Shown piece after piece: positions 9,201 through 27,502 of a stretch of 45,479 nucleotides of DNA. The stretch is from the IMG/VR virus record IMGVR_UViG_3300030098_007001, positions 1 through 45,479 of that record, one strand, 5' to 3'. The first letter of the stretch is position 1; the number at the start of each line of letters is the position of its first letter. Source of the stretch: a virus. The position numbers and the translations under genes were made by a program. Below the pieces are notes generated by a model that was not told the origin of the DNA, searched no databases, and worked only from the letters and a program-made list of their open reading frames with translations.

Positions 9201-11842
9201 GAAACAAAACCTCCATTGGTAGAGTTAGCACTAACAGAACAAGCTTGAACTGCATTACAAGCGCTTATGTTACCAGCTACTGTAAGCTTTTTATTTGGCG
9301 CTGTAGTACCTATACCAACTTTACCGGATGATGGCATTAGTACATTATAGGTTAATTGATTAACTCTAAATAAATGAGTACCGTTACCTGCTTCTACTCT
9401 TAATCCATCAAAATTACCACTTGAACCACCACCACAAAATACTGCTAAATCTCTATCAATTGTTTTAAGAGCCGATACTTGCAAATATGATGACGGTCGG
9501 TTTGTGTTAATTCCAACGTTACAAGCGAAAAAATTAGGAGCTTTTGTTGCGCTGAGGCCACCGCACGCACTTATGTTACCAGAAACAGTAAGTTTTTGTC
9601 CTGGGCTCGTACTACCTATACCTACATTACCATCTCCATTGAAGAACATCTCTCTACGACCATCGGTAGAGTTAAAAATAGTTAAGCCACCACCTAGATT
9701 TCTAAATTCGTATGTATCATCCCCAGCTCTTTGTAAAACAAAACCGTATTGAGTTCCCGAGCCTTCTACTTTTACACTACCATCTTTTACATGTAATGAT
9801 GTAGTTGGACCAGTAGTACCTATACCAACATTGCATGCAAAGAAATTTTTTGCTTCTGAAGCACTAAGGCCACCGCATGCACTAATATTACCTTTTACAG
9901 TAACATTGCTATTAAATGTAGCAGCTCCGCAATTAGACATATCAAGTCTTAAAGCTTCAAAATTTCCAGAAGAAGCACCACAAAAGACCATGTCCTTATT
10001 ATTAGATTTGGCATGTATTATTAAATTACAACTATTATTTGTAATTCTTCCATACTCAACACCATTATCTTTAAGTTTAATATTTCCGCCATCGCCATCG
10101 AGAATAATATCACCACCTGCATCTATAGTTAAATCACCTCCGTCAGATATGGTTGAATCATTTAGAGTTATATCATCTACTGTTAAAGAACATAAAGTAC
10201 CTAATGATGTTACACAGGGTTGTGCAGCAGTTTGTAATGTGCCAGTGATATTTGTACCAATAATATTTGTACCTTGAATATCACCACAAGCAGATATATC
10301 ACCAACAACAGTAAGTTTTTCATTTGGTGTTGCAGTGCCAATACCAATATTGCCTCCATCAGTTATAGCAATAAAGCCTCTTTCAATTAATCCGGTATTT
10401 AAATAATGACCAAACTTAGCTACATTATTACTTCTATCAAATCTTATAGCAGCATATCTAAAGTTACCATCAATTGCTGAAACACCAGCAAGGGAGTATC
10501 TATCATTTCCATCTGTGCTAAATGACAGAATATTTCCTACTGCCTGAAGTTGTGCAATACTGGACGGACTCGTTGTACCAATACCGACTTTACCATTTAT
10601 AGTAATGCCTGTATCAATAGCTGATATTACACTATCACCTAAAGTATCCGTATCATTCCATTGTGATATCTTAAACTTTGTACCCGACCCATCAACATTA
10701 CCTGAGCTTGTAGCAAAGATGTCTGCTAAATCTCTTCCAGCGGAAACAAAACCATTGTGTGTTGATCTAGCACTAAGACCATCGAAAGCAGTAATACCGC
10801 GAGATGTAGTTATATTATTAGAAAATGTTTTAATACCACCTATAGTTTGTGTACCAGTAGTTCGAACTACAGAACTATTAACACCAACGGTATTTGCATT
10901 TACAGTTATACCGTCACCAAAACCAACACCAAGGGAAACATCACCTGTACTTCCTCCTCCAGTTAACCCCGGTCCAGCAGTAACGCTAGTTATATCACCA
11001 ATATTAGTTGTAAATATATCTGCAAGATCTCGACCAGCTGAAACAATACCATTATTTGTTGATGTTGCACTTATTGAATTACCTACTAAAGTATTACTGC
11101 AAACTGAAGTTGTACCACATATAGCAGGGCTACAAACTGAAGTTGTACCGCATATAGCAGGACCACAAATTGCAGTTGTACCACATATAGCAGGACTACA
11201 AACTGAAGTTGTACCACATATAGCTGGACTACAAATTGCAACACTTGCGCTTAAAGACCCTGTGGTTCTAGTCATATTAGAACCACCACTTAGTAAACTA
11301 TCAGTTAGAACTGTAGATCCTGACCATGCTGGTATAAAGTTTGTAGTACCTGATCCACATACACTTCCAGAGGAAGCAGTAGTTACAAATATATCTGCAA
11401 GATCTCGACCAGCTGAAACAATACCATTATTTGTTGATGTGGCACTTAATGATAGACCTTTAATAAAACCTGTAGAACTTACATTACCAGCAATAGTAAG
11501 CTTTTCATTTGGTAATGCAGTATTAATACCTAAATTACCACTATCTGCAAAATTTATTACTCCCCCCTCTTGATCAACAAATTCTGCGATAGGTTGATTT
11601 GCACCTTTTTGTCTTACATATAAAGCTGGTCCAGTACCATTATTAATAACTGACAGAGCAGAAGTCGACGTTACAATAGTTTTCGTAAATGTGGCAGATG
11701 TTGCTTCAAACTCTGTTGCAGTTAATTTAGTAAACGTTGCGTTAGTACCAGTAAGAGCATTCAAGAAAGCATTACCACCCACAGACAAATCCTGTGTGAT
11801 AGTTGCACCATTCTTTACCTTAAAATCTTTGTTTAATGCCAT
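3263..11842 (-). CDS. Giant modular tail fiber, 2859 aa
   Basis: A very long repetitive structural protein. Its N-terminus (ALNKDFKVKNGATITQDLSV) is typical of T4-like marine phage fibers. It is followed by many copies of a module reading roughly VGIGT-x-x-P-x-x-KLTVAGNISA-x-GGLSA-x-x-YFACNVGIG, alternating with SGGRDLADIFATSSGNVDGTGT-type segments. The last ~110 residues (GDYITTSDKPGHG, then VKAMIRKM) form a non-repeated C-terminal domain seen at the end of such fibers. Cys is abundant, including a 33-bp tandem repeat near the N-terminus. Expected to be a trimeric fiber on the baseplate. It is transcribed with the 227-aa fiber gene upstream and the partial fiber downstream. Confidence is high for a fiber; receptor specificity cannot be read. 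Confidence 0.9.
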   Translation of the reverse strand: MALNKDFKVKNGATITQDLSVGGNAFLNALTGTNATFTKLTATEFEATSATFTKTIVTSTSALSVINNGTGPALYVRQKGANQPIAEFVDQEGGVINFADSGNLGINTALPNEKLTIAGNVSSTGFIKGLSLSATSTNNGIVSAGRDLADIFVTTASSGSVCGSGTTNFIPAWSGSTVLTDSLLSGGSNMTRTTGSLSASVAICSPAICGTTSVCSPAICGTTAICGPAICGTTSVCSPAICGTTSVCSNTLVGNSISATSTNNGIVSAGRDLADIFTTNIGDITSVTAGPGLTGGGSTGDVSLGVGFGDGITVNANTVGVNSSVVRTTGTQTIGGIKTFSNNITTSRGITAFDGLSARSTHNGFVSAGRDLADIFATSSGNVDGSGTKFKISQWNDTDTLGDSVISAIDTGITINGKVGIGTTSPSSIAQLQAVGNILSFSTDGNDRYSLAGVSAIDGNFRYAAIRFDRSNNVAKFGHYLNTGLIERGFIAITDGGNIGIGTATPNEKLTVVGDISACGDIQGTNIIGTNITGTLQTAAQPCVTSLGTLCSLTVDDITLNDSTISDGGDLTIDAGGDIILDGDGGNIKLKDNGVEYGRITNNSCNLIIHAKSNNKDMVFCGASSGNFEALRLDMSNCGAATFNSNVTVKGNISACGGLSASEAKNFFACNVGIGTTGPTTSLHVKDGSVKVEGSGTQYGFVLQRAGDDTYEFRNLGGGLTIFNSTDGRREMFFNGDGNVGIGSTSPGQKLTVSGNISACGGLSATKAPNFFACNVGINTNRPSSYLQVSALKTIDRDLAVFCGGGSSGNFDGLRVEAGNGTHLFRVNQLTYNVLMPSSGKVGIGTTAPNKKLTVAGNISACNAVQACSVSANSTNGGFVSAGRDLADIFATSSGNVDGTGTANFIPVWSDTDTIGNSIACQSSTQLTVAGNVSACGGLSATQMNNYFGCYVGIGTNRPGKPLHVNDDDSVGGICVTGASLLGTFERDIGTSGLCVSILGSNADPQIRYNQGTKCWAAGVDQSADSFVIADGSEIHTGDYKLEVGTGQTTIHGNVSACGGLSATKGVGYFACNVGIGTCRPSTILEVSGDGVGAAGIDLSQGESSSISNRLFFSTGNASQGVALYNLNGTLNFSTGAEPANTSGDSRMYLTNAGNLGIGESSPGQKLTVAGNISACGGLSATEGAGYFDCNVGIGTNRPESLLHVSSNSSESQLRIESDNGNGDPFLHFKLDSGSDYSIGIDDNASNTFKISRNATLGTNDILKVDSTTAIVYCNLLVGEADGTLDGSRLEVWSTNSQSPFSITNTDNSNRKVLDSAFNSNHPRFSIFNASAVETIRLETNGVSYFNGGNVGIGTEEPNEKLTVSGNISATGSLSAGLGEHVAVCNSSYGGFISGGRDLADIFATSSGNVDGTGTKFKIPQWSDTDTLGDSVISAIDTGITIDGRLGIGVADPSNKLHVCAEQDGDYVTRITNTEATAGANYGLKVDGGSNASDVSFEVSSLAGTNYFEVRGDGNVGIGETVPGEKLTVAGNISACNTVQACSVSANSTNGGFVSAGRDLADIFATTSGNVDGTGTKFKIPQWNDTDTLGDSPLSATNNGVGVAGSIIACDVDPRIRVEATAGNHPGFEWLEAGSRKWINYNDPDSSQGGNDNLTWKNASDTELMELDQDGLLYVSSKIVHLDDTNTFINFTDDDINIQAGGVNFIDITQDASNEITFNEAGADIDFRVEGDTDTSLLFTNAGTDKVGIGTITPGDKLTVQGNLSTSGNICLIDDGIIKLGKDNDLQLQHDGANSYISENGTGDLYITTNDASVYIQDANSGNIMLGARGGSGEKIELSQGGTVRLETTSTGVKTCGSQCVTNDLNVDGDAKVRAATVNRGLTAFRGLSARSTHRGFVSAGRDLADIFTACTGTIDGSGTTCHVPQFTDADTIGTSCAYFNSSTLVNRGLISGSNICIGGDVPTNAVIGQSRIGNYVADNAYFSHFDNGTSANYAVKQNANGATGLNSKSGQILTLNINNDPQLTVNADCVGIGLTTPSYPLHICRSGAATLAIQSNGNDDEGSKLRLIEGSANWMGGYVHYDGADNNFILGVHADNNTTLSDDNPVIIIPRDTGKVGIGTATPNEKLTVAGNISATGTLSAERVAVCNSSYGGFISGGRDLADIFTTCTGTIDGSGTANFLPVWSDADTIGNSIACQSCTQLTVAGNVSAGGGLSAKNIGLDGTSCGYYIGGSGGGPATNELRIGSKTTGNTIALELFHSANPVSLGIDYDGGAGLAFIESAHGSYDTNTHLLFKPGGSETWRIGSHGTGGTYSNSFKIKPASSGNDFYVSDESGNPTIYSDTSTKNVGINTATPNQKLTVSGNISASGGLSANGGIITNGSICVNRLAGGTPFDNFKISTADIVTTLERVENTGDAAAGYGRLDFKTNASTGGVAGRSGFKFIDGDGDSILYLENNNASATFAGNISAGTGKHFAACNSSYGGFISGGRDLADIFATSSGTIDGSGTKFKIPQWNDTGTLGDSVISAIDTGITIDGCLGIGTSCPESKLTVVGGQVEVKGSNDTSAVTGMLVKTSSATSQGLFGVEGSGTGHITGTIARATLLASTASSTALQLGAAGVVRATIASDGCVGIGTTCPQSLLHVGGGDIRIDNNRRYQTETASGGVIDAVKMDSSDNLVIGDCNIKIDVSGTTPRMTIGTDSCACGFVGIGNDNTGCVLTPNERLTVGGSISASGDGYFACVIAGGYFEQKAANDKLACYPTGTLVVIGECGDLIQSTRENDKKVFGVTQNGVCQPIVLGAEPVLVTGDIKIGDYITTSDKPGHGRKTLDPIYGSVIAQSMEAGTGDSHLVKAMIRKM
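11101..11232 (-). repeat. 33-bp tandem repeat, four units, inside fiber gene
   Basis: Four consecutive 33-bp units start at 11101, 11134, 11167 and 11200, with a few substitutions and a partial fifth unit. Each encodes an 11-residue peptide close to SVCSPAICGTT. The repeat keeps the reading frame and gives nine Cys in about fifty residues including the flanks. Confidence 0.9.
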
Positions 11843-11891
11843 ATCTACGAGTTCACTTTCCCCCGTAAATATATTTATGTTGCGTTATGAT

Positions 11892-12575
11892 TTAATAATG
11901 CGCAACACCATATATTGTTACAGTACAATTGGCTGTTGTTGTAATAACAAGATCTATTGTTGAAGAAATAGCTGTTGTTACTTCAGAAAGAAGAGATGTA
12001 GCTTGCGCATCCACTATACCATACGTCGTACCATCAGCTACACTTGCTCCATCATGTGTTACTAATATTTCAAAAGCTGTTCGCGCAGGTGTATTATTTG
12101 AAAGAGTAACTATGTATTTAGCAGTTTTAAAATCTGTTTTATTAAATGTATTTACAGTATTGACTCCAGTAGATAAAGGACCTGTAAATACACTTGTCTT
12201 TGAAAAAACAATATTATTTGCTGCATATTCAATAATATCCCCCCTTACAATTAAATCACCACTAACTTCATTATTATTAAAGGTAAAATCTTCCCCTGCG
12301 GTCATTTCATCCCACGTTGCATTACCGTCTCCTGTCGTCTTTAAAAAAAGACCTGCGGGCTGATTACTTGATTTTATATCAACACCCTCAACATGAACTT
12401 GCGAACTTGATAGTATATTACCGTTCCAAGAACCAAAGTAATCAACTGCAGAAACACTACCAGATAAAACACTTATATTACCGGCTACAGTTAGTTTTTC
12501 GTCAGGAATAATTCCTAAACCAACATTACCTTCAAAATAACTTCTTCCGTCGTATGTTCTTATGGGCTTAGCCAT
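11892..12575 (-). CDS. Short fiber or fiber-associated structural protein, 227 aa
   Basis: The N-terminal ~50 residues carry the same module as the giant fibers (YFEGNVGLGIIPDEKLTVAGN). The rest is a Ser/Thr-rich beta domain ending in VTIYGVAHY. Its ATG overlaps the stop codon of the upstream glycosyltransferase (TAATG), so the two are translationally coupled. It is probably a small fiber subunit or the proximal part joined to the 2859-aa fiber. It lacks the long repeat array of its neighbours. Confidence 0.7.
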   Translation of the reverse strand: MAKPIRTYDGRSYFEGNVGLGIIPDEKLTVAGNISVLSGSVSAVDYFGSWNGNILSSSQVHVEGVDIKSSNQPAGLFLKTTGDGNATWDEMTAGEDFTFNNNEVSGDLIVRGDIIEYAANNIVFSKTSVFTGPLSTGVNTVNTFNKTDFKTAKYIVTLSNNTPARTAFEILVTHDGASVADGTTYGIVDAQATSLLSEVTTAISSTIDLVITTTANCTVTIYGVAHY

Positions 12576-13351
12576 TAAACATATTTAATCGGTATGCCTG
12601 ATCTCTCAACAAATCCTCGTTGTTTGATATATGATGAGCTTGAAACTGCTAGATCGGCGCGTTTATCAGCAATAGGTCCAACTCGTGGCATATTTGGATT
12701 ACCGTAAAAATGATAAACATACAATATATCACTAATATGTTTAACAGCAGAATAATCACCATCTCTTTGTCTTAGTTTATATAATAATGGTAAAATATAA
12801 GCGTGGTCAGTTCCCATTTGAAACCATTTATTATCATGATCTAAAAAATTAGCTTTAGGAATTGATAAAAGAGCTTTTACTTTAAAGGTTGACATATGGC
12901 TAGTAATCCAATCATCTTTATATGGATCCCAATCTTTTGAAGGTATAGATTTCGAAATACCAGGTTTATCATCACTAGATAATCTATAGTTTGAATAAAC
13001 GTATTCTAATTTTGGATTTTCATCATATGTCTTTTTTACAATAGATAGAGCGTCTTTTTTAGCTAACCAATCATCACTATCAACTGCGCAAATAATATCT
13101 TCCGGATCTTTACTACAAGCATGATCAACAATATTTTTTAATCTATAATTTCGTGTTTCATTTTGAATTATTTTAATATATGAATTGCGATCTTTACACT
13201 TGTTTAATATATCTACAGTTTCTTGATCCGACATATCATCAACGATTATATGACTATCAGGTTGTAGCGTTTGTCTTTCAACGCTATCGATACAATTTAG
13301 AAGAAATGGACCGGGATTTCTCCCTGGAGATATAACATGTATCTTACTCAT
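12575..13351 (-). CDS. Family 2 glycosyltransferase
   Basis: 258 aa with a GT-A fold signature. The N-terminal beta strand and donor site read HVISPGRNPGPFLLNCIDSV, followed by QTLQPDSHIIVDDMSD and the metal-binding DSDDW (DXD-type) near residue 95. It transfers a sugar from a nucleotide-sugar donor; the acceptor is unknown. It lies between QueF and the fiber genes and overlaps both neighbours by TAATG junctions, so it may glycosylate fibers, a host surface component, or a modified base. I see no membrane segment. The family call is firm, the acceptor is not. Confidence 0.85.
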   Translation of the reverse strand: MSKIHVISPGRNPGPFLLNCIDSVERQTLQPDSHIIVDDMSDQETVDILNKCKDRNSYIKIIQNETRNYRLKNIVDHACSKDPEDIICAVDSDDWLAKKDALSIVKKTYDENPKLEYVYSNYRLSSDDKPGISKSIPSKDWDPYKDDWITSHMSTFKVKALLSIPKANFLDHDNKWFQMGTDHAYILPLLYKLRQRDGDYSAVKHISDILYVYHFYGNPNMPRVGPIADKRADLAVSSSSYIKQRGFVERSGIPIKYV

Positions 13352-14277
13352 TATTGTTTAGGAGTCTTAATATGAGGTACATCAACCATACTTAAAGTAT
13401 GATGCATAAGTCTTTCATGTGATACTCTTTCAGGGTTAATATCAAGACCACCTCTACGAGCATATAGACAACGAACAGCTAATTCATCAGGACTAATTGT
13501 ATCCATAAGCCTTTTATAAATAGCTTCACAAATTTCTTCATGAAAATGACATTCATCTCTAAATGAAACGATATATTGCAATAACGAGATAGGATCAACA
13601 GTATTTTTACCTTTCATATAGATATAAACATCACCCCAATCAGGTTGCGAAGTTACCCTACAGTTTGACTTTAGCAATGAACTATGATAATAAACCTCTT
13701 CAGAAGGTGCATCTTCAATCTCTACTAGTAAATCAGGATCTTCTTGATATACAGAAAACTCAATATCTTCTACAGGATAATCATCTTCAAGAGTAATATA
13801 CTTAGGGTGATTCCATTCTGCCTTAGCAGAAAAAATATTCGTATCACTAAGAACGTATTCGTTAGAATGAACTTTAACTTGAACTTCTGTTTCTAGATAT
13901 TTACTTAAATCACTAGCAGCGCGCTTACTAATTTCTTGTCTAACTTCTTCAGCAGTATCGCCAAGTTTAGTCATATTAAAAGAGTTAAAATATAACTTAA
14001 TAGATTTAGACTCAACAATATATTTACTAGAGCAAGGATAAACGCATTTAGCAACTCCTGTTACAGGAAGACCGTGATTAGTTAAAGCAGATACTTCATA
14101 CGCATTCCAAGTATCATAACCTAAGAAAGGTAGTTGATCGTCATCAATATTAAGATGAGTTCTATTAGACTGACGAGGCTCTCTAACTAAGAGTTTAGGA
14201 TCGTAAGTAGATTTATATTTAGAAATAGCACCTAGATGCTTACTAATATTACTATTATCAAGAATTGCGTTAGCCAT
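13351..14277 (-). CDS. queF: NADPH-dependent 7-cyano-7-deazaguanine reductase (QueF)
   Basis: 308 aa, the size of the two-domain E. coli type. QueF reduces preQ0 to preQ1 with NADPH. The family ESK-x-x-K-L-Y motif is at residues 89-95 (ESKSIKLYFNSFN). The catalytic Cys206 and Asp213 lie in LLKSNCRVTSQPDWG, FHE is at 245-247, and RRGGLDINP is conserved near the C-terminus. The start is ATG at 14277, two bases after the kinase stop codon; an in-frame upstream ATG would overlap the kinase gene. Next to a formyltransferase and, elsewhere, a transglycosylase-like gene, it more likely serves DNA base modification than tRNA queuosine, though a tRNA role cannot be excluded. Confidence 0.93.
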   Translation of the reverse strand: MANAILDNSNISKHLGAISKYKSTYDPKLLVREPRQSNRTHLNIDDDQLPFLGYDTWNAYEVSALTNHGLPVTGVAKCVYPCSSKYIVESKSIKLYFNSFNMTKLGDTAEEVRQEISKRAASDLSKYLETEVQVKVHSNEYVLSDTNIFSAKAEWNHPKYITLEDDYPVEDIEFSVYQEDPDLLVEIEDAPSEEVYYHSSLLKSNCRVTSQPDWGDVYIYMKGKNTVDPISLLQYIVSFRDECHFHEEICEAIYKRLMDTISPDELAVRCLYARRGGLDINPERVSHERLMHHTLSMVDVPHIKTPKQ

Positions 14278-14278
14278 A

Positions 14279-14875
14279 TTAAATTTTAATATCAAGGTTT
14301 AGTTTATCAAGAGTACTCTTAATAGTTTCTAATCTTTCTTTAACAGAACCTTCCAAGTATACTACTCGAGGTCCTTTCTCAATAATACTATACTGCAAGT
14401 ACATATCAAAAAGACCAATAATATCTTCTCTAAAATGCTTATCGATACTTCTTTCTCCATCATCTACTAACTCAACATCATCAGGACTAGTATAAAAAAT
14501 AACATCATACTCGTTCCTAAGCTTTCTATAGATAAGATCACATGCATCGTAAGTAGTTCTATTTATCTTTCCTTTATCTAAAAGATAATGACTATAAACT
14601 ATACCGTCTAAAGCGCATCTATCTAATATTTTATTAACACTTCTTATTAAATTATCCGTTCTACCTTTATAGATATTACGAATATGCTCAGTCATAATTA
14701 ACATCTGAGTCATATCATCCCCACCTTCATTAATAGGAACTTCGTATTCACGCTTTACTAATCTAGTTACTTCGGGAATAAATTCAAAAGAATGACTACC
14801 TAAATTTTTACACTTTAAATGCTCAAGTAAAGTAGTTTTACCCGTACTTTGAGCTCCAGTAAACGAAAAGATCAT
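14279..14875 (-). CDS. P-loop ATPase/kinase (AAA_28, NadR-like)
   Basis: 198 aa beginning with a Walker A motif (FTGAQSTGKTTLLEHL). An LID-like region and DRCALDGIVYSHYLL resemble NadR-type and nucleoside-kinase-like P-loop proteins common in T4-like phages. The substrate is unknown. The ATG overlaps the formyltransferase stop codon (ATGA) and QueF follows directly, so it may act in the same base-modification or nucleotide route, for example phosphorylating a nucleoside or cofactor. That link is inference from position. Confidence 0.75.
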   Translation of the reverse strand: MIFSFTGAQSTGKTTLLEHLKCKNLGSHSFEFIPEVTRLVKREYEVPINEGGDDMTQMLIMTEHIRNIYKGRTDNLIRSVNKILDRCALDGIVYSHYLLDKGKINRTTYDACDLIYRKLRNEYDVIFYTSPDDVELVDDGERSIDKHFREDIIGLFDMYLQYSIIEKGPRVVYLEGSVKERLETIKSTLDKLNLDIKI

Positions 14876-15619: not shown

Positions 15620-16000
15620 CTATAGGTATTTTAACGCCGTAAAGTTAATAAGCAAGTGGATAGTATTATCACATGCAACTAAAAGCCATAAGGATAACCA
15701 TTGCGGGACGTCTTTATGATACCCCGTCTCTTTACAATCTTCCCATTTATGCCAATACTTTTTAGGAGCTAATCGACTCTTAGCAAAGACTACATAGCGC
15801 GCTAATCTAAACCGATCAATAAAAAAATGAGTAACGCATATAACTGCAAATGCTTCAGCAGAGGGACATAGAATTAAAAACGGTAACGAGTAAGTAACAG
15901 CATGTGCTGCAGCGGCTTTACTGCATTTCGTTTTATTGAGGGCCATCCAGTCGCTTTGAAGAAGATAGTCACCAATTAGATGTAATATCAATTGGAGCAT
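15620..16000 (-). CDS. DUF3307-like membrane protein, 126 aa
   Basis: The N-terminus LILHLIGDYLLQSDWMA and the following ITHFFIDRFRLARY-type region match the DUF3307 membrane family found in many marine phages. Three or four hydrophobic segments are visible. It is the first gene of the minus-strand operon and is divergent from the curli operon. Function unknown. Confidence 0.75.
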   Translation of the reverse strand: MLQLILHLIGDYLLQSDWMALNKTKCSKAAAAHAVTYSLPFLILCPSAEAFAVICVTHFFIDRFRLARYVVFAKSRLAPKKYWHKWEDCKETGYHKDVPQWLSLWLLVACDNTIHLLINFTALKYL

Positions 16001-16045: not shown

Positions 16046-16052
16046 TTAAATA
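16046..16052 (+). promoter_or_regulatory. Late-type promoter box TTAAATA
   Basis: TTAAATA, then five bases, then the GTG start at 16058. It would drive the whole curli operon. Confidence 0.7.
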
Positions 16053-16057
16053 ATTTT

Positions 16058-16339
16058 GTGGATGATTTTTTTAAATTAGTTACCGAGGTAGGCTTTCCAA
16101 TAGCTGGCGCTGTTGTATGTGGAACTTTTGTATTTATTATTCTTAAATTTATACTTAGTGAGATAACAAGCTCAGTTAAAGGCCTTGGTGGAATGATAAA
16201 ATCATTAGAAAATAGAGTACAAACTATGAATAATGATATAGTTAAAATAGATACATTAGTTTCTTATGCTTTTAATAAACACCCTAATTTAGATAGATTA
16301 GCTGCAAATGAAGGAAAGGAGGACGCAAGGAAAGACTAA
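16058..16339 (+). CDS. Small membrane protein with coiled coil, paralog 1
   Basis: 93 aa. One transmembrane segment (residues ~10-33, GFPIAGAVVCGTFVFIILKFIL) is followed by an amphipathic helix with regular heptads. GTG is chosen as start because it lies exactly five bases after the promoter box. It is related to the next gene: both have a (V/I)xLxxxxGFPI opening, one TM and a helical tail with M-x-N-D. It could be holin-like or a helper of the curli pore; function unknown. Confidence 0.75.
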   Translation: MDDFFKLVTEVGFPIAGAVVCGTFVFIILKFILSEITSSVKGLGGMIKSLENRVQTMNNDIVKIDTLVSYAFNKHPNLDRLAANEGKEDARKD

Positions 16340-16626
16340 TGACAGAAACAATAGTAAAACTTATAAATGATTTTGGATTTCCAATATTCGCTGCTTTTGG
16401 TTTAGGTTATTTCGTTTATTATACATGGAATTGGGTAGTAAAAGAAATTAAACCTGTATTAGAAGAATCTACTGGAACACTTATAGGCTTAATAGATAGG
16501 ATAAGAATGTTAGATAATGATATGATTAGACTTAATACAAAAATACAGATGATTCTCCAGGAAAAAGAGCAAATAGAAAAAGAAAATTTAAAAAGAAATA
16601 GACGTATTTTGGATACAAAGCTCTAG
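16339..16626 (+). CDS. Small membrane protein with coiled coil, paralog 2
   Basis: 95 aa, one TM segment (GFPIFAAFGLGYFVYYTWNWVV), then a long charged helix rich in Glu/Lys. It is a diverged copy of the preceding gene, whose stop codon overlaps its ATG. A purine-rich stretch with GGAGG lies about 20 bases upstream and GGAAAG about 5 bases upstream. Function unknown. Confidence 0.75.
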   Translation: MTETIVKLINDFGFPIFAAFGLGYFVYYTWNWVVKEIKPVLEESTGTLIGLIDRIRMLDNDMIRLNTKIQMILQEKEQIEKENLKRNRRILDTKL

Positions 16627-16644
16627 CAATATATATTAATGTAG

Positions 16645-16651
16645 GTAAATA
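16645..16651 (+). promoter_or_regulatory. Late-type promoter box GTAAATA before csgF
   Basis: GTAAATA, five bases, then the ATG of csgF at 16657. Confidence 0.6.
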
Positions 16652-16656
16652 GTGTT

Positions 16657-17130
16657 ATGAAATATATTTTATTGTTATTTCTTTTTTGTAGCAGCGCTTT
16701 AGCTGATCAATTAACGTTTAAGTTTAAGTCACCTTCGTTTAATGGTATCGGCTATAGCTCGCATAAAATTAATTTAGAGAATATTTCAGCTGCTAGAAAA
16801 AAGACTATAAAAGATGAAATTCGGTCATTACAGATTCAAGCTAATCTAGCTGCACAAAGAACTCCTTTGAATGTTTTTATGACTAATCTTCAGTCACGAA
16901 TTTATTCAGAGCTTTCTAAGCAAGTTACTGAGCAGTTATTTGCTGATACGGGTTCAGATTCTGGTTCATTTGATTTAGATGGGAATACTATTTCATGGTA
17001 TAGAATTTCAAATCAAATTAATTTAACCGTTACAGATACTGACGGTGACATTACTGAAATTTTGATTCCAATAGGATCGCTCTTACTGCCAGAGCCTACA
17101 ACTAATGAAGAAACTACTACTACTGACTAG
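16657..17130 (+). CDS. csgF: Curli assembly protein CsgF
   Basis: 157 aa with a clear signal peptide (KYILLLFLFCSSALA). The mature N-terminus reads DQLTFKFKSPSFNGIGYSS, the hallmark of CsgF (aromatic F-x-F/P-x-F-x-G). The C-terminal half (ISWYRISNQINLTVTDTDGD, then TEILIPIG) matches the CsgF beta domain. CsgF binds the outer face of the CsgG pore and couples secretion to nucleation of curlin. It overlaps csgG by 26 bases. A Thr/Glu-rich tail follows the usual end. Confidence 0.92.
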   Translation: MKYILLLFLFCSSALADQLTFKFKSPSFNGIGYSSHKINLENISAARKKTIKDEIRSLQIQANLAAQRTPLNVFMTNLQSRIYSELSKQVTEQLFADTGSDSGSFDLDGNTISWYRISNQINLTVTDTDGDITEILIPIGSLLLPEPTTNEETTTTD

Positions 17131-17902
17131 CTTAAGCTTATTGCTTTTAGGTGGTTGTAGTACTTTTCAAAATGGTCCAGATCAGCTTCCTATAGTAGCG
17201 CCTACTCCTCTTAATATAGAGCTAAATGAATTACCTATATTAGATGGTGATCCTATATATGTTGGAGTATCAGATTTTAAAGACCTTACTGGTCAACGTA
17301 AACAATCAGATAATTACGCGAGTTTTTCTTCTGCTGTTACTCAAGGAGCAGAAGCATGGTTAATTGAATCTTTATTAGAAACTGGTGATTGGTTTAAAGT
17401 TTTAGAGAGAGGTCAACTTGATAGTATTATGCGTGAACGCGCAGTAGTACAACAAACTAGAGAAGATTTTACTGATGATGATGAAACGGGACTTAAACCT
17501 ATGCTTTTCGCTGGGCTACTTATTCATGGTGGTATTATTGGATACGATACTAACTATGTTACTGGTGGTGTTGGAGCTTCATATTTAGGATTAGGAGCAG
17601 CTGAACAACATAGAAAAGATGTAGTAACTGTTTCTATAAGATTTGTTAGTACTTTAACAAGTGAAATTTTATTATCTTCAACAGTATCTAAAACTATATA
17701 TTCTACTTCATTAGGTAGCGATGTATTTAAATATGTTAAAAATGATATTAATCCGCTTGAAATAGAGTATGGATTTGCAAAAAATGAAATGGTCTCAGTA
17801 GCTACTAGAGCAGCTATAGATTTAGCTATTATTAATTTAATTAATAAAGGCGAAGAAAAGGGTATGTGGAAATTTATAAATACCCCAGCAGAAGATAATT
17901 AA
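17105..17902 (+). CDS. csgG: Curli secretion pore lipoprotein CsgG
   Basis: 265 aa lipoprotein with a lipobox ending LGGC (Cys18). The protein follows CsgG along its length: VGVSDFKDLTGQRKQ, then the loop region YASFSSAVTQGAEAWL, ERGQLDSIMRERAVV, IIGYDTNYVTGGVGASYLGL and a C-terminal SAIDxAIxNLINxGxxxGxW-like stretch. CsgG forms a nonameric outer-membrane channel for curlin export. By eye alignment, the constriction Phe (F56 in E. coli) is kept while Asn55 and Tyr51 differ. That may widen or change pore selectivity, which is inference. It is coupled to csgF. Confidence 0.95.
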   Translation: MKKLLLLTSLSLLLLGGCSTFQNGPDQLPIVAPTPLNIELNELPILDGDPIYVGVSDFKDLTGQRKQSDNYASFSSAVTQGAEAWLIESLLETGDWFKVLERGQLDSIMRERAVVQQTREDFTDDDETGLKPMLFAGLLIHGGIIGYDTNYVTGGVGASYLGLGAAEQHRKDVVTVSIRFVSTLTSEILLSSTVSKTIYSTSLGSDVFKYVKNDINPLEIEYGFAKNEMVSVATRAAIDLAIINLINKGEEKGMWKFINTPAEDN

Positions 17903-17917
17903 ATTACTGTTTTTTTA

Positions 17918-17924
17918 ATAAATA
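17918..17924 (+). promoter_or_regulatory. Late-type promoter box ATAAATA before curlin-like gene
   Basis: ATAAATA, CTTTT, then ATG at 17930. The same box-spacer-start string occurs at 31245-31259. It implies separate, extra transcription of the curlin-like gene inside the operon. Confidence 0.65.
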
Positions 17925-17929
17925 CTTTT

Positions 17930-18709
17930 ATGAAAACAAAAGTATTCCTTTTTAGTATACTTGCTTCAGCAGGCTTAACTCTGGGTAGTAATGAAATCTA
18001 TTTAGATCAAGTTGGAAGTGCAGGTATTTTTAATATATCGCAAATTGGTTCTTCTAATAAATTAGGTGAAGGAACTAATAGATCACGAATTGAAGGTGAA
18101 GAAGTTGTATTTAATGTTGCAACTATTGGTAATCAAAACTTAGTAGATATTGATTCTATTGGTAATGAAGAAGAAGTAAATCTTCAAGTTGAAGGTGATG
18201 CTAATGAATTTGTATTAGCTTTAGAAGGAGATCAAAATACTATAAATGCTTTTGTAGCTGGTGATTCTAATAATGTATTGATTGCTGGTAATCAAGAAGA
18301 TACACAAAAAGCTACTGTTAATAATGGATTAATTAATTTAAATGTTGAAGGATCTACAAATGATGTTGAGTTGCTTTTATTTGATACTTCATATACCTTT
18401 ACTGATTATTTTATAGGTGGTTCTTTAAATACTATTAGCTCATATCAAGAAGGTCACGGAGGTCTAATTGGTCACTCTCAATTAGTTGATGTTTTCGGAA
18501 GTAGTAATAATTTATTAGTATCGCAAGTAGGTTCCGAAAGTCAATTCTTAGAACTTTCAATCTTAGGTAATGAAAACAATTATCAAATATTCCAAACTGA
18601 TGGAGCGTTTGACCCAACATTTATGCCTGAGCAAACTGGCAACTCTGTTACTCCTGTTAATGAGTTCTCTAATCCAGATGGTCCCCCTCAGGGCAACGTT
18701 AATCCTTAG
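17930..18709 (+). CDS. Curlin-repeat protein (CsgA/CsgB-like)
   Basis: 259 aa with an N-terminal signal peptide (FLFSILASAGLTLGS), then curlin-like repeats of ~20-25 residues with the spaced Q-x-G-x-x-N pattern (YLDQVGSAGIFNISQIGSSN, VATIGNQNLVDIDSIGNEEE, ALEGDQNTINAFVAGDSNN, SQVGSESQFLELSILGNENN). These stack as beta strand-loop-strand in amyloid curli. The likely substrate of the neighbouring CsgG/CsgF pore. Repeats are more degenerate and more acidic than E. coli CsgA, and the C-terminus is a repeat-free Pro/Asn tail. A fiber, nucleator or adhesin role is inferred; amyloid formation is untested. Confidence 0.8.
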   Translation: MKTKVFLFSILASAGLTLGSNEIYLDQVGSAGIFNISQIGSSNKLGEGTNRSRIEGEEVVFNVATIGNQNLVDIDSIGNEEEVNLQVEGDANEFVLALEGDQNTINAFVAGDSNNVLIAGNQEDTQKATVNNGLINLNVEGSTNDVELLLFDTSYTFTDYFIGGSLNTISSYQEGHGGLIGHSQLVDVFGSSNNLLVSQVGSESQFLELSILGNENNYQIFQTDGAFDPTFMPEQTGNSVTPVNEFSNPDGPPQGNVNP

Positions 18710-19598
18710 TATACTTTGTTTATTTGTTAGTACTAGTTTAGCTAAAGTTGGTAACGTAACTGCTCAAACAAGAGCAGCTCAGATCACCCGTAAAGGTGAT
18801 AAGATTTTAACGGAAGTTGATACTCCTGTTGAAATGCGCGATCTTATACAGACGTTAAAAGGTAGAACTGATATTAAATTTGTAGACGATACTAAGGTAA
18901 GTGTTACTGAATACTCTAAGCTTATTATAGATGAGTTTGTTTATAATCCGGAAAAGAAAACTGGTAAATTATCTCTTAAGGCTGCTTTAGGTACTATAAG
19001 ATATTCTTCAGGTAAAATAGCTAGAAACTCTGGACAAAATGTAAAGATAAAATCTCCTACTGCATCAGTTTCGGTTAGAGGTACAGATTTTACTATGAAT
19101 GTTCAAGAAGATGGAGCAAGTAGTTTTATACTTTTACCATCAGTAGATGACTCTGGTAAAAGTTATGTAGGTTCAATTGATGTATCTACTCTGGGAGGCA
19201 AGGTTACTTTAAATCAAGCTTATCAAGCTACTACAGTAACTACTGCTATTGCTCCTCCTACTCCACCTCAAATTATAAAACAAGACGGACCAGGAGAGCC
19301 TAAGAAAAAAGATAATGTTGATAACGAAAATAACGCAGTAGAAAATGAAAATGAAGATAAAGAAAAAGATGATTTTGACGATATAAAAATTAAAAGAAAA
19401 GAAAAACAAATAATGAATACGTTTTTAAAAATGGAAGATGGTAGATATGTTTTCTTCTCTAAAGATAAAGATAATATGATATCATTAATTGTTGAAGATG
19501 GTAGTAATGTTACTGTTAATTATGATAATAAAGGTAGTGTTATAAACGCTAAGTTTAATTCTGGTAACAACGTTCAATTTAATATAAAACAGCAATGA
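18678..19598 (+). CDS. Secreted FecR-domain protein
   Basis: Start chosen at ATG 18678, overlapping the curlin gene by 32 bases, because it leaves a compact signal peptide (LRATLILSILCLFVSTSLA); an in-frame ATG 108 bases upstream would bury it. The FecR domain follows: KILTEVDTPVEMRDLIQTLKG, LSLKAALGTIRYSSGKIA and the signature TPTASVSVRGTDFT-like block (SPTASVSVRGTDFTMNV). The C-terminal part has a Pro-rich linker, a very acidic Asn/Glu/Asp stretch and a small beta region. FecR-domain proteins next to CHASE2 cyclases are a recurring pair in bacteria. It is probably periplasmic, sensing or binding glycans or curli. Confidence 0.88.
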   Translation: MVPLRATLILSILCLFVSTSLAKVGNVTAQTRAAQITRKGDKILTEVDTPVEMRDLIQTLKGRTDIKFVDDTKVSVTEYSKLIIDEFVYNPEKKTGKLSLKAALGTIRYSSGKIARNSGQNVKIKSPTASVSVRGTDFTMNVQEDGASSFILLPSVDDSGKSYVGSIDVSTLGGKVTLNQAYQATTVTTAIAPPTPPQIIKQDGPGEPKKKDNVDNENNAVENENEDKEKDDFDDIKIKRKEKQIMNTFLKMEDGRYVFFSKDKDNMISLIVEDGSNVTVNYDNKGSVINAKFNSGNNVQFNIKQQ

Positions 19599-21652
19599 AA
19601 TTTTTTAATATTAACAACTATGCTATATGCTTAGTTATAACAGTACTTTTAGCTTGTATAAGAATTCTTGATCCGTTTTTTATAGAAACTGCAAGACTAA
19701 AAGGTTTAGATTATTATCAAAATAAACAAGATAAAGTAAAATCTGAAAATATAGCTATTATAGAAATAGACGAAGATAGTTTAGATGAATATGGACAATG
19801 GCCTTGGAAACGAGATTTAATAGCTCAAGGTATTATAAAAGCTTATGAAAGTGGAGCTCAATTAGTTGTAGTGCCTATATTATTTGCAGAAAAAGATAGA
19901 CTAGGCGGTGATCAAGAGCTTATAGACTTGCTTGCTGAAGCTCCGGTGATTATAGGTCAATCAGCAAGTACTAAAGGTAAAGGTGAACCTGTACCTAGAG
20001 GATTAGCTACCATAGGTGAAAGTTTAGATGGTTGGTTGTATGACTATCCAGAAGCAATTGGCCCTGTAAAAGAACTCGGTGAAGTAGCCGCGGGAGTAGG
20101 AATGATATTAACAGCTCCTGAACTCGATGGAGTAGTTAGAAGAATGCCTTTAGTTATTCAAATTAAAGGAGAAGCTTATCCAACTATACCTTTAGAAGTT
20201 ATAAGGTTATTTGCTGGTGAACAGTCTTATCAAGCTAAGGTAAATTTAGCAGGAGTAGAAGCTATAAGAGTACCAGGTTTTGATCCTATAGTAACTGATG
20301 AAAACTCTAGAGTATGGATTAATTTTAAATATGAATTTGACAAAGTTTCATTTAAAGATGCTGATTGGTCAGCTGTGCAAGATAAGATAGCTATAATAGG
20401 TTTAACAGGAGAGGGTTTAGCAAATACTATAGCTACTTCTACAGGTATAAGTTATGGACATGAAGTTAATAGTCATGCTTTACAAATGATTATAGATGAA
20501 TCACGATTAGTTAGACCTGCTGAAGCTAAATTATTTGAAGTTGTAATTACTGCTGCTTTTTGCTCTCTTCTTATATTGGGAGCACTATTTTTATCATATA
20601 AATTTAGCTTTATAATTATAGTTCTTTCTTTAGCTGCTGGTCCTATAGCAGGAAATATTTTATTTGATAAACATGGATGGTTAATCGATTATACTTGGCC
20701 TTTTGCTTGTATTTTTATAGTATGGTCATGCGCTACTTTTCTTCGTTATATAGCTGAAAGTAAAAGTAAAAAATTGATTAAAAAGCAATTTGAACATTAT
20801 CTTGCTCCTCCTATAGTAAAGCTTCTACAAAAAGATCCTTCGCAACTTAAACTAGGAGGCGATACTAGAGAGCTTTCTATACTCTTTAGTGATCTAAGAG
20901 GATTCACTACTATTAGTGAACATTTTAAATCTAATCCGCAAGGTTTAACTGAGTTAGTTAATAGATATTTAACACCCATGACCGGTTGTGTAATCGACTA
21001 TCAAGGTACAGTAGATAAATTTATTGGAGATGCTTTAATGGCTTTTTGGAACGCGCCTTTAGATATAAAGGATCATAGAATTCATTCTATTCGATGTGGA
21101 TTAAAAATGTTTGATCTATTAGCTGAACTTAATCGTGAAGTAATGAATGAAGGTATTAGCGAGCTAAAAATTGGAGTAGGTATTAATACAGGTGATGTTG
21201 TAGTTGGTAATATGGGTTCAGAGCAAAGATTTGATTATACTTGTTTAGGTGATGCAGTTAATTTATCATCTAGATTAGAAGGCCAAACTAAAGAGTATAG
21301 AGTAGGTTTAATAGTAGGTGAAAATACTACATTAGGAATTACTTCTGTTTTTAATTTTGTTGAATTAGATAAAATAGCAGTTAAAGGTAAAAAAGAAGGT
21401 ATAAAAATATTTACAGTACTAAATGATACAGGATTAGCAGCTCATGGAGGCAATCCAAAAAAGCATAATATGTTTTTAGAATTATATAGATCACGTAAAT
21501 GGAAATTAGCTTTAGAAAAAGCTAATGAAAATAAAAAAACTTATCCTGAATTAGTAGACTATTATGATATGATGATTGAAAGGATAGAGCATCTTAAATT
21601 AGATGACCCTGGCAAAGATTGGGATACAATCTTTAGAGCTACTTCGAAATGA
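19595..21652 (+). CDS. CHASE2-domain adenylate cyclase
   Basis: 685 aa. TM at ~10-28, a CHASE2 sensor ~35-305, two or three TMs ~313-385, then a class III cyclase ~425-600. Catalytic residues are intact: metal Asp433 in FSDLRGFT and Asp479 in KFIGDALMAFW; Lys475 and Thr549 (FDYTCLG) favour ATP over GTP; Asn556 and Arg560 in AVNLSSRLEG. A short helical tail follows. It should make cAMP in response to a periplasmic signal. ATG overlaps the fecR stop codon. An intact sensory cyclase in a phage is unusual. The product is inferred from motifs. Confidence 0.93.
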   Translation: MKFFNINNYAICLVITVLLACIRILDPFFIETARLKGLDYYQNKQDKVKSENIAIIEIDEDSLDEYGQWPWKRDLIAQGIIKAYESGAQLVVVPILFAEKDRLGGDQELIDLLAEAPVIIGQSASTKGKGEPVPRGLATIGESLDGWLYDYPEAIGPVKELGEVAAGVGMILTAPELDGVVRRMPLVIQIKGEAYPTIPLEVIRLFAGEQSYQAKVNLAGVEAIRVPGFDPIVTDENSRVWINFKYEFDKVSFKDADWSAVQDKIAIIGLTGEGLANTIATSTGISYGHEVNSHALQMIIDESRLVRPAEAKLFEVVITAAFCSLLILGALFLSYKFSFIIIVLSLAAGPIAGNILFDKHGWLIDYTWPFACIFIVWSCATFLRYIAESKSKKLIKKQFEHYLAPPIVKLLQKDPSQLKLGGDTRELSILFSDLRGFTTISEHFKSNPQGLTELVNRYLTPMTGCVIDYQGTVDKFIGDALMAFWNAPLDIKDHRIHSIRCGLKMFDLLAELNREVMNEGISELKIGVGINTGDVVVGNMGSEQRFDYTCLGDAVNLSSRLEGQTKEYRVGLIVGENTTLGITSVFNFVELDKIAVKGKKEGIKIFTVLNDTGLAAHGGNPKKHNMFLELYRSRKWKLALEKANENKKTYPELVDYYDMMIERIEHLKLDDPGKDWDTIFRATSK

Positions 21653-21798
21653 TAAAGGAACAAATAGCCCATGCAGGACCTACTGTTAAAAATGTTCCAA
21701 GTATCCAAAAACCTAAGTATAACAAAAACCTCTTTAATGTACTATTTACTAAAGGAAAAAATTCCCTATCATTAGCTTTAGTAATAATCATTTGCTGA
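21649..21798 (+). CDS. Small ORF, 49 aa, C-terminal hydrophobic
   Basis: An ATG overlapping the cyclase stop codon (ATGA) opens a 49-codon frame starting MIKEQIAHAGPT and ending in a hydrophobic segment (SLSLALVIIIC). The overlap matches the junction style of this operon and supports a real gene. It may be a tail-anchored membrane peptide. No family recognised. Confidence 0.5.
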   Translation: MIKEQIAHAGPTVKNVPSIQKPKYNKNLFNVLFTKGKNSLSLALVIIIC

Positions 21799-21817: not shown

Positions 21818-22630
21818 TTAATCTAAAAGAAGCTTTTTAAACTCAGAAGTATTATATAGAATATCTGCTCGCTGCTCTGCAGTAGCTTCAACTTTAATAA
21901 GATCAGCTAATAACACAGAAGGTTTATCTACTAAGCCAATACCTTTAAGATATCGTTCCCCAACAATACCAGCAACTACAGGGTTAGAAGTATCTAAAGA
22001 TCTTATACCTTTAATCCATTTATAATCTTTAAACTCACATGCTAGAGAACAACCAAGTAAATGATGAGGCTTATTATAATTCCATACACCATCTTCAGTA
22101 AGCATTTTAATAAGACGCCTTCTACCTTTATATTGCCTATGTAATATTTGTTGTTTATAACTATAACGAGATCCAGAAACTAAAGAAGCAACTCCTTGAT
22201 ACCATGAATAGTCAAAAGAGATAGCAATATAATCAGCATTTTCATTCATATACTTATAACAATCAACTATTTCTTGATAGGTAGTACCTTGTACAACACC
22301 TATTTTTAAACCAGGTAGATCAGGATAGTTAAGACAAAACTTATGAAAAGAAGATATGGTAGCTTGACTATCTTCTAATACATCAGGCACTACATAATAA
22401 GTAGGTTTAAGCTCTTCAACATACTCAGCAAATTTTTTAGAATCGAAGGCCTTTCCAAGCTCAAAGATAGAGTTATCAAGCAATACCTCTCTACCAAGAG
22501 TTAAAGAAACTTTAAAGAAGTTGTAATACTCAGGATATTTTTCAAATAGATGAACTAAAGCATAATCATAATCGTTATAATTACGCGATTCATCTAACAT
22601 CGAAATAGGAGATTCATGACTTACTAGCAT
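21818..22630 (-). CDS. Transglycosylase-like protein (TGT/DpdA superfamily)
   Basis: 270 aa. The order of motifs resembles guanine transglycosylases: LLDNSIFELGKAFD, VVPDVLEDSQATI, LKIGVVQGTTYQEIVDCY, ADYIAISFDYSWYQG, then HHLLGCSLACEF and IRSLDTSNPVVAGI. It lacks the zinc-binding Cys cluster of bacterial tRNA-TGT and is much shorter, as are phage DpdA enzymes, which exchange guanine in DNA for a 7-deazaguanine. With QueF and a formyltransferase in the same window, a DNA-modifying role is likely. The family call is by eye and subfamily is not assignable here. A TATAAT-like box lies five bases before the ATG. Confidence 0.72.
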   Translation of the reverse strand: MLVSHESPISMLDESRNYNDYDYALVHLFEKYPEYYNFFKVSLTLGREVLLDNSIFELGKAFDSKKFAEYVEELKPTYYVVPDVLEDSQATISSFHKFCLNYPDLPGLKIGVVQGTTYQEIVDCYKYMNENADYIAISFDYSWYQGVASLVSGSRYSYKQQILHRQYKGRRRLIKMLTEDGVWNYNKPHHLLGCSLACEFKDYKWIKGIRSLDTSNPVVAGIVGERYLKGIGLVDKPSVLLADLIKVEATAEQRADILYNTSEFKKLLLD

Positions 22631-25841: not shown

Positions 25842-27488
25842 TTAACCTTCACAGGAAGAACATTCATTCAATGAACGCGCTAGCTCTTGCGCAGGATTTG
25901 CACTTCGTTGATAGTATAGAGACTTAATACCATTTTCCCAAGCCCATACAATAAGTTCATTTACTTCTTTAGGTTTAGTCTTAGGTGGTACTTGCATATT
26001 AATAGATTGACCTTGATCAATATATGGTTGTCGTTGAGCTGCTTGTATAAGTATTTCTTTTTGAGATATCTCACCAAAAGTTTTAAATACCTCCTTTTCG
26101 TGATCTGTTAAAAATTTTAAATGTTGAACTGATCCTCCCTTTTGCAAAATACTTCTCCATGTAGAAACATCATCTTTTTCATAACTTTGAAGTACTTTAG
26201 TAAGTTCCGGATTTTTATAGGTAAATTTACCTTTAGCTAAATCTTTTGTAAAATAGTTACTATTAAGAGGTTCAATAGAAGGACTAATTTGACCCAATAT
26301 AAAAGAACTACTAGTAGTTGGAGCTACAGCAACTAAACAGCTATTGCGTAGACCATAACCTTCCATCAGAGAAGGTACTCCATACTCTATTGCCATTTCC
26401 TTTGAGGCTGCTGTAGTTCTTTCCTGAATAGTTTTAAAGATAAGAGAGTTTTGTAGTTTAGCTTCCATAGACTCAAAAGCAATATTTTCTTGCTGTAAAT
26501 ATGAATGCCAACCTAATACTCCAACTCCTAAAGCTCTTTGCGTTACTGCAAACTTATGAGGCGATTCCATATTTTTAACCCCTCTAGTTTTATTAATAAA
26601 CTCAGTCATAACCGCATCGAGAAAGTATGTTAGAGTTTCTATAGCATCAGTTTCGACAATCTCTTTCCATTTAGCAAGATTGAGAGAAGAGAGATCGCAT
26701 ACAAAAGATTCATCTTCTTCCGCAGATAAAAAGATCTCAGTACATAAGTTTGAAGCATGAATACGTTTGTCTTTATCTTTATATACTTGTGGAGCGTTGT
26801 TATTAGCATTATCGGAAAAAAATATATACGGGTATCCAGATTCATAACGCTTCTTTATAATTTTACCCCATAAATTACGCTTCTTTTTATCACCTGCTAT
26901 CATTGAATTCATCCATTCATCACTTACTGTAACTCCTATAGACAAATCTTGAATAGCATTACCCTCGCCTCTAATACCTAAAAATTCTTCTATATCGCCA
27001 TGATCAATAGGAAGATAAGCAGCAAAAGAACCCCTTCGTACATTGCTTTGTGAAATGTAATTAGTTAAGGCATCAAAAACAGTTAGTTGGTGATGTACTC
27101 CTGTAGATGTACCTCCTGTAGATATTTTAGCTCCTCTATGTCTTACATCTCCAAAATATGCAGATGTGCCCCCTCCCACTTTTGACATAGTGCCTACTTC
27201 AGCTATCTTACCTAAAATTTGTTCCATATCATCCGGAATGTAGGATCCAAAGCAAGAAATAGGCAGACCTCTATCTCTGCCAAAGTTTGACCAAATAGGA
27301 GATGAAAGAGAGTAGAAACCTCTATGCATATAATCTATAAATTTTTCTGCCCACCCATCAATACCTAAATATTCTTGCGCTTTGTACGCAATATCTTCTA
27401 TTCGTTTTTCGGGATCTTCACCGGGCAGTAAGTATCCTCTTTCAAGAAACTTACGAGAATCTTCGTTAAGCCAATATATGTCACTCAT
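25842..27488 (-). CDS. nrdA: Ribonucleotide reductase class I, alpha subunit
   Basis: 548 aa, short for the family because the ATP-cone is absent. Active-site residues are visible: Cys79 (LPISCFG), Asn247-Cys249-Glu251 (SNLCTEIFL), Cys264 (FVCDLSSLNL), the C-terminal Tyr pair (LYYQRSANP) and a terminal CSSC redox pair (543-546). With NrdB it reduces ribonucleotides to feed phage DNA synthesis. Loss of the cone predicts weak or no dATP inhibition. Confidence 0.95.
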   Translation of the reverse strand: MSDIYWLNEDSRKFLERGYLLPGEDPEKRIEDIAYKAQEYLGIDGWAEKFIDYMHRGFYSLSSPIWSNFGRDRGLPISCFGSYIPDDMEQILGKIAEVGTMSKVGGGTSAYFGDVRHRGAKISTGGTSTGVHHQLTVFDALTNYISQSNVRRGSFAAYLPIDHGDIEEFLGIRGEGNAIQDLSIGVTVSDEWMNSMIAGDKKKRNLWGKIIKKRYESGYPYIFFSDNANNNAPQVYKDKDKRIHASNLCTEIFLSAEEDESFVCDLSSLNLAKWKEIVETDAIETLTYFLDAVMTEFINKTRGVKNMESPHKFAVTQRALGVGVLGWHSYLQQENIAFESMEAKLQNSLIFKTIQERTTAASKEMAIEYGVPSLMEGYGLRNSCLVAVAPTTSSSFILGQISPSIEPLNSNYFTKDLAKGKFTYKNPELTKVLQSYEKDDVSTWRSILQKGGSVQHLKFLTDHEKEVFKTFGEISQKEILIQAAQRQPYIDQGQSINMQVPPKTKPKEVNELIVWAWENGIKSLYYQRSANPAQELARSLNECSSCEG

Positions 27489-27502
27489 AATAATTAAATC
27501 TT

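Follow-up and report, generated by a model that had tools for sequence, protein, structure and literature searches.

Why would an ocean phage carry curli genes together with a FecR-domain gene and an adenylate cyclase? The question is raised by IMG/VR virus record IMGVR_UViG_3300030098_007001, which we analysed over its full length of 45,479 bases (hereafter the window) and which encodes CsgF, CsgG, a curlin-like repeat protein, a FecR-domain protein and a CHASE2 class III adenylate cyclase in one operon. The benefit of curli genes to phages has been debated since 2020, with a lysis pore, an uptake pore, capture of siblings and superinfection exclusion among the proposals. Here we describe a related group of viral contigs that carries a type I secretion system (T1SS)-like exporter and a large adhesin in place of the curli exporter and its polymer, while the FecR domain and the cyclase are kept. 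This swap speaks for surface display and opens that idea to specific tests.

Layout of the operon and its order across viral contigs

Seven genes lie on the plus strand within 16058-21652 of the window, almost without gaps (intergenic distances of -1, +30, -26, +27, -32 and -4 nucleotides in operon order). The preliminary description of this DNA had named five of them, CsgF, CsgG, curlin, FecR and cyclase, and all are present at that place (CsgF, CsgG, FecR and the cyclase with Pfam matches); the span it gave also covers two small membrane proteins, here called TMa and TMb, which its text left unnamed. The features are:

16047-16052, plus strand: T4-type late promoter core TAAATA, 5 nucleotides upstream of the TMa start
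16058-16339, plus strand: TMa, 93 residues, one transmembrane segment and a coiled coil, GTG start (phrog_18771, 1e-27)
16339-16626, plus strand: TMb, 95 residues, a paralogue of TMa (phrog_18771, 3e-30; phrog_4898 holin, 0.007)
16646-16651, plus strand: late promoter core TAAATA, 5 nucleotides upstream of the csgF start
16657-17130, plus strand: CsgF, with signal peptide (PF10614, 2e-17)
17105-17902, plus strand: CsgG outer-membrane pore lipoprotein, lipobox LLLLGGC (PF03783, 4e-47)
17919-17924, plus strand: late promoter core TAAATA, 5 nucleotides upstream of the curlin start
17930-18709, plus strand: putative degenerate curlin-like repeat protein, signal peptide, 11-residue half-repeats (from repeats, model and family profiles)
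18678-19598, plus strand: FecR-domain protein, signal peptide, C-terminal strand ending in GNNVQFNIKQQ (PF04773, 5e-9)
19595-21652, plus strand: CHASE2 domain and class III adenylate cyclase (PF05226, 3e-36; PF00211, 5e-21)

For the FecR gene we prefer the ATG at 18678, because the signal peptide begins there and this start agrees with relatives; the mechanical start at 18570 is too far upstream. Two minus-strand genes flank the operon: a DUF3307 membrane protein directly upstream of TMa (15620-16000), conserved in the window's clade, and a phrog_19058 protein (21818-22630), conserved in the window's relatives L004-L009, where it directly follows the cyclase.

The late-type promoters of the preliminary description were borne out by position. 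TAAATA ends exactly 5 nucleotides upstream of the start codon in 10 of the 54 open reading frames (ORFs) of the window, against 0.055 expected; these include TMa (16058), csgF (16657) and the curlin gene (17930), as well as the endolysin and a baseplate-type gene. Because the overall count of ATAAATA across the whole window is not raised (28 seen, 34 expected), the fixed position upstream of start codons is the informative part of the motif. This spacing is the signature of T4-type late promoters, which argues that the operon is probably expressed late in infection, with internal late promoters. The window is a viral record whose long relatives carry T4-type Gp23.

A survey of the five-gene order, which the preliminary description had proposed, gave a uniform picture. 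A CsgG profile found a relative in at least 584 viral stretches, of which we examined the best 80 together with 9 earlier loci. Where sequence length allows, viral CsgG is accompanied by CsgF in 82 of 82 cases, curlin in 77 of 77, FecR in 63 of 63 and the cyclase in 46 of 46 (IMG/VR contigs being fragments rather than independent samples), so that the order CsgF-CsgG-curlin-FecR-cyclase is near-invariant in viral contigs. A 1.5-kb 'Salmonella phage' CsgG record was set aside as probable host DNA.

The small membrane pair is tied to the same module. Among 50,697 phage records, TMa/TMb homologues occur in six curli records only; when the pair was searched for independently, 31 of the 32 loci with no less than 6.5 kb of sequence to either side had a curli or T1SS-like module adjoining it. 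In 19 of 26 loci it lies at most 9 kb from the curli module, two further contigs carry it at another place, and it was not found in one lineage (L016, L017, L025, L027, L045). A histidine kinase has been reported upstream of the pelagiphage curli module (PMC9599517), and this may be the TMa/TMb pair under another name; a Pfam search found no kinase domain in either protein.

The pair also bears on the lysis role that Buchholz et al. 2022 (PMC9004378) proposed for csgF/csgG of the Methylophilales phage Melnitz. On that account the CsgG/CsgF pore would be a repurposed lysis device that depolarises the envelope late, with TMa and TMb as holin and antiholin. The late promoters upstream of operon genes fit it, as do the holin-like character of TMa/TMb and the presence in L016, from the lineage without the pair, of a recognised holin (phrog_6384, 6e-8) about 1 kb downstream of the cyclase. 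The holin similarity of the pair is weak, however (phrog_4898 at 0.007 for TMb and 1e-4 for the best family member; YvrJ at 0.21), the endolysin is encoded away from the operon, at 30463-31203, and the curlin, the FecR protein with its tail and the cyclase are always retained.

Exchange of the exporter in a related phage group

In the viral contigs L112 and L251-L271, a T1SS-like exporter, a FecR-cadherin adhesin and the CHASE2 cyclase occur without curli. L112, a 148-kb contig, carries TMa, TMb and the cyclase, and no CsgG was found anywhere on it with a profile that does match curli contigs. Upstream of its cyclase are an outer-membrane efflux protein (OEP; PF02321, 3e-51), an HlyD-type adaptor (HlyD_3, 2e-17), a membrane protein that resembles the membrane part of an ATP-binding cassette (ABC) transporter and has no Pfam match, and an adhesin. 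The adhesin of L112 has about 1,300 residues and a FecR domain as its first domain, and it is the one in which cadherin repeats were found; complete adhesins of the group measure 1,209-1,471 residues.

This arrangement recurs. With the adaptor as query we retrieved 21 contig stretches (L112 and 20 others), all 21 with the cyclase, all 21 with the TM pair, and none with CsgF, CsgG or curlin. Eleven further whole contigs of the T1SS-like type likewise yielded no CsgG; one of them, of 172 kb, lacks the TM pair as well. The cyclases of the group form one clade (Shimodaira-Hasegawa-like approximate likelihood ratio test, SH-aLRT, 99), sister to the curli-linked cyclases, which is consistent with a single replacement event. 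We did not find such a T1SS swap in phages described in the open-access literature.

Exporter and polymer are thus exchangeable, while the FecR domain and the cyclase are kept, as is the TM pair in most cases, and display of an adhesive polymer is therefore the simplest common function. A lysis pore fits worse, because related phages replace the pore by a T1SS-like exporter and keep the rest; an exporter and a large adhesin in the place of the pore are left unexplained, and we consider the lysis device unlikely. A pore that takes nutrients or cofactors into infected cells, as suggested in PMC7029224 and PMC9599517, would agree with the lack of a detectable CsgE gate, but it accounts for neither curlin, CsgF and the FecR tail nor the replacement by exporter and adhesin, and we think it very improbable. 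Both kinds of dedicated pore are disfavoured because neither predicts the exchange of exporter and polymer.

The FecR-domain protein, the curlin and the cyclase

In the window's FecR protein, an N-terminal signal peptide leads directly into the periplasmic FecR domain, with no cytoplasmic anti-sigma part. Its AlphaFold2 model (mean predicted local distance difference test score, pLDDT, 74, and around 90 in the FecR part; the alignments behind our predicted models are shallow, at 21 and 29 sequences) resembles FecR-family periplasmic domains (6ovk, PupR, Z 15.2; 4m0n, Z 14.0) and also the 'Cell surface anchoring domain' 5ix9 (Z 11.1, root-mean-square deviation 2.0 over 73 of 76 residues; Foldseek probability 1.00). 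We take the latter entry, labelled 'Antifreeze protein' in the PDB sequence data, to represent the region that anchors the adhesin of Marinomonas primoryensis. By sequence, its match to the T1SS-group adhesin is weak (E 0.02). Retention domains of this kind become folded in the periplasm and keep the adhesin in its exporter (PMC12077191, PMC13090378).

At the other end of the protein, the terminal pattern [IVLFM].[IVLFM].Q is found in 122 of 132 distinct FecR tails from curli phages as against 434 of 7,128 background ORFs (the 132 include the few from the T1SS group and from bacteria, and related sequences are not independent). The residues before it score like curlin repeats (mean 0.54, versus -6.3 for shuffled tails), and in about half of the tails a second copy of the motif lies 21-22 residues upstream, near the length of a curlin repeat. 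Neither the T1SS-group adhesins nor the bacterial locus L192 described below show the motif.

These properties bear on the proposal of Wittmers et al. that FecR and the cyclase, with the upstream 'histidine kinase', regulate the curli genes on iron or other cues. The FecR family name, the PupR-like fold and the control of csgD by cyclic AMP (cAMP) in model Gammaproteobacteria (cited in PMC9599517) speak for such a role. The FecR protein, however, is headed by a signal peptide instead of an anti-sigma part, the operon genes have phage late promoters, the upstream genes of 93 and 95 codons lack a kinase domain in Pfam, and in the T1SS-like group the FecR domain belongs to the adhesin itself. We therefore hold regulation to be slightly more doubtful than lysis. 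The label 'sensor', given to FecR in the preliminary description, is unsupported in its classical sense, because there is no anti-sigma part, the fold fits an adhesin anchor as well as PupR, and the tail is curlin-like.

The family profile of the exporter matches the E. coli CsgG structures at 7e-67. In the presumed substrate, the 17930 protein, G-x-x-N-type motifs are spaced by exactly 11, 11, 11 and 11 residues, and structure prediction gives it an all-beta model of repeated strands (pLDDT 78.6). A fold search (VIA) with this model lists beta-helix proteins such as SufB/SufD (Z up to 17) and no curlin structures, matches that we would read only as 'beta-solenoid class'. Broader family evidence is closer to curlin: of the 13 sequences in family alignment A3, 7 match PF07012, and the A3 profile reaches the curlin structures 8c50 (6e-13) and 8enq (1e-4), and the profile of alignment A4 reaches 8c50 at 0.008. 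With moderate confidence, we regard the protein as a degenerate curlin. The second curlins of HTVC008M and L088 carry a PA14 domain, seen as an N-terminal fusion to curlin repeats in L002:10638-11963 and L088:7570-8874.

The cyclase is most likely an active adenylate cyclase, judging by its intact catalytic residues. All 178 cyclase sequences compared have the two Asp residues for metal binding, the Lys for the substrate and the Arg for the transition state (D, K, D, R); the transition-state Asn is present in 139 of them, including that of the window, and Thr, Ser or Asp occupies the purine site (Thr in the window).

Its pairing with FecR extends beyond phages. In 385 alphaproteobacterial genomes, 25 FecR matches, among the matches listed, lie at most 10 kb from a cyclase of this type (about 1 expected), in many cases on large ORFs. 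The CHASE2 cyclase CyaD1 of S. meliloti adjoins the FecR-domain gene smc02177, and deletion of CHASE2 leads to constitutive cAMP (PMC5498481). Such neighbours being common in Alphaproteobacteria, the pair is a bacterial theme carried by phages. The csgG neighbourhood of most alphaproteobacterial curli loci is without FecR and cyclase; in L192, a 705-kb contig of a Hyphomonas metagenome-assembled genome, csgF, csgG, curlin, FecR and CHASE2 cyclase genes stand in a row at 8456-14479 in a bacterial setting. This run contradicts the published statement that FecR and adenylate cyclase (AC) are absent from bacterial curli operons. The unit may therefore have been captured whole, one assembled genome being thin support; no close cyclase relative was found in 104 other members of the family. 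L171-L173, L208 and L210 were dropped as bacterial evidence, since they appear to be phage contigs that ended up in bacterial genome bins.

Proposed function and comparison with known systems

The function that we infer, and to which we give about an even chance, is that of a late surface-fibre display module with a FecR anchor and a periplasm-facing cAMP reporter. CsgG and CsgF would export the phage curlin through the infected cell's outer membrane, and the exported protein would form an amyloid-like fibre or a coat there. The FecR-domain protein, like a giant adhesin's anchoring domain in fold, would act as a periplasmic or outer-membrane-proximal anchor, and its curlin-like C-terminal strand could cap or nucleate the fibre in a CsgB-like role. 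The CHASE2 domain would face the periplasm, read the state of the FecR anchor and set cytoplasmic cAMP. The phage would probably benefit from an altered surface late in infection, through aggregation, capture of neighbours or exclusion of competitors.

With the same machinery, the exported fibre might chiefly work against competing phages, as a shield or decoy, instead of aggregating cells. Superinfection exclusion has been proposed (PMC9599517), and late expression and the PA14 domain on some curlins are compatible with it; late expression is, however, late for exclusion, and at the level of benefit this explanation overlaps with fibre display. As the principal role we judge it about as unlikely as the lysis device. 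Among the jobs listed in the preliminary description (coating infected cells, blocking superinfection, aggregating hosts, an outer-membrane pore for lysis), coating and aggregation fit best, and the lysis pore suffers from being swapped in a related group.

Somewhat more tentatively, fibre display can be generalised. Marine T4-like and related phages would possess an interchangeable surface-polymer module with a core of FecR anchor, CHASE2 cyclase and usually the TM pair, and with either a curli or a T1SS-like exporter; the FecR domain would be part of the polymer, by adhesin fusion or through a curlin-like tail, and the cyclase would report display by cAMP in a Lap-like logic.

Several observations weigh against fibre display. 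The 148-kb contig yielded no ABC ATPase, and for this reason we call the exporter T1SS-like and do not claim a complete T1SS. Buchholz et al. observed no clumping among cells infected with Melnitz (PMC9004378). The window curlin on its own sequence has no significant match in Pfam (including Curlin_rpt, PF07012), PHROGs or NCBIfam, the profile of its seven-member clade matches no solved curlin, and Foldseek with its model gave no PDB match under 0.001; the preliminary description's claim of an own curlin is thus upheld by the half-repeats and the broader family profiles, and not by a Curlin_rpt match of the protein alone. No CsgE was found with the phage module. The curlin-like FecR tail is a motif statistic, drawn from related and hence non-independent tails, in which Pfam detects no curlin repeat, and the contact between FecR and CHASE2 is one that we infer from gene neighbourhood only.

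Elsewhere in the window, all on the minus strand, are a tail-fibre-like ORF of 2859 residues (3263-11842, phrog_9942), a phrog_5949 'GTP cyclohydrolase' gene (13351-14295) whose product, from the look of its sequence, presumably resembles QueF of the deazaguanine pathway, the large and small subunits of ribonucleotide reductase (25842-28486; for the large subunit, Rhodobacter/Ruegeria phage genes are nearest by tblastn) and a transfer-messenger RNA gene with a long predicted tag (37399-37809; RF00023, 133.7 bits).

The window operon is not new as a kind, because the full module was published in 2022 and both HTVC008M (KC465899) and Melnitz (MZ577097) carry the same gene order. The csgG/csgF pairs named in the preliminary description are indeed published for pelagimyophages (Zaragoza-Solas et al. 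2020, PMC7029224), but that account was incomplete: Wittmers et al. 2022 (PMC9599517) reported an HK-CsgF-CsgG-CsgA/B-FecR-(CsgA/B)-AC module (HK, histidine kinase) in podo- and myophages (pelagiphages). What we add is the near-invariant order, the exporter swap, the anchor-like FecR fold with its curlin-like tail, and the common FecR-CHASE2 neighbours in Alphaproteobacteria.

The pelagiphage type VIII secretion system (T8SS)/curli module, as in HTVC008M, shares with the window the order of CsgF, CsgG, curlin, FecR and cyclase; the window differs in having one curlin gene, not two, and an upstream pair without a kinase domain. Melnitz resembles the window in the full order, TMa/TMb, FecR and cyclase included, but has a second curlin, and its paper covered only csgF/csgG. 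Enterobacterial curli (csgBAC/csgDEFG) share CsgG and CsgF homologues and curlin-type repeats, whereas the window module adds FecR and the CHASE2 cyclase, and neither CsgD, CsgC nor a separate CsgB was found with it. The Sinorhizobium CyaD1/SMc02177 unit (PMC5498481) likewise has a FecR-domain gene beside that of a CHASE2 class III cyclase; it is bacterial, with no curli reported, and CyaD1 acts in infection control in symbiosis. For this common and unexplained pairing in bacteria, the phage module suggests a role. LapA/MpIBP-type adhesin retention resembles the window in the anchoring-domain fold of the FecR model (5ix9) and in the pairing of a membrane second-messenger protein with a surface polymer, but the window relies on predicted export by CsgG and on a cAMP-making CHASE2 cyclase in place of LapD/LapG and cyclic di-GMP.

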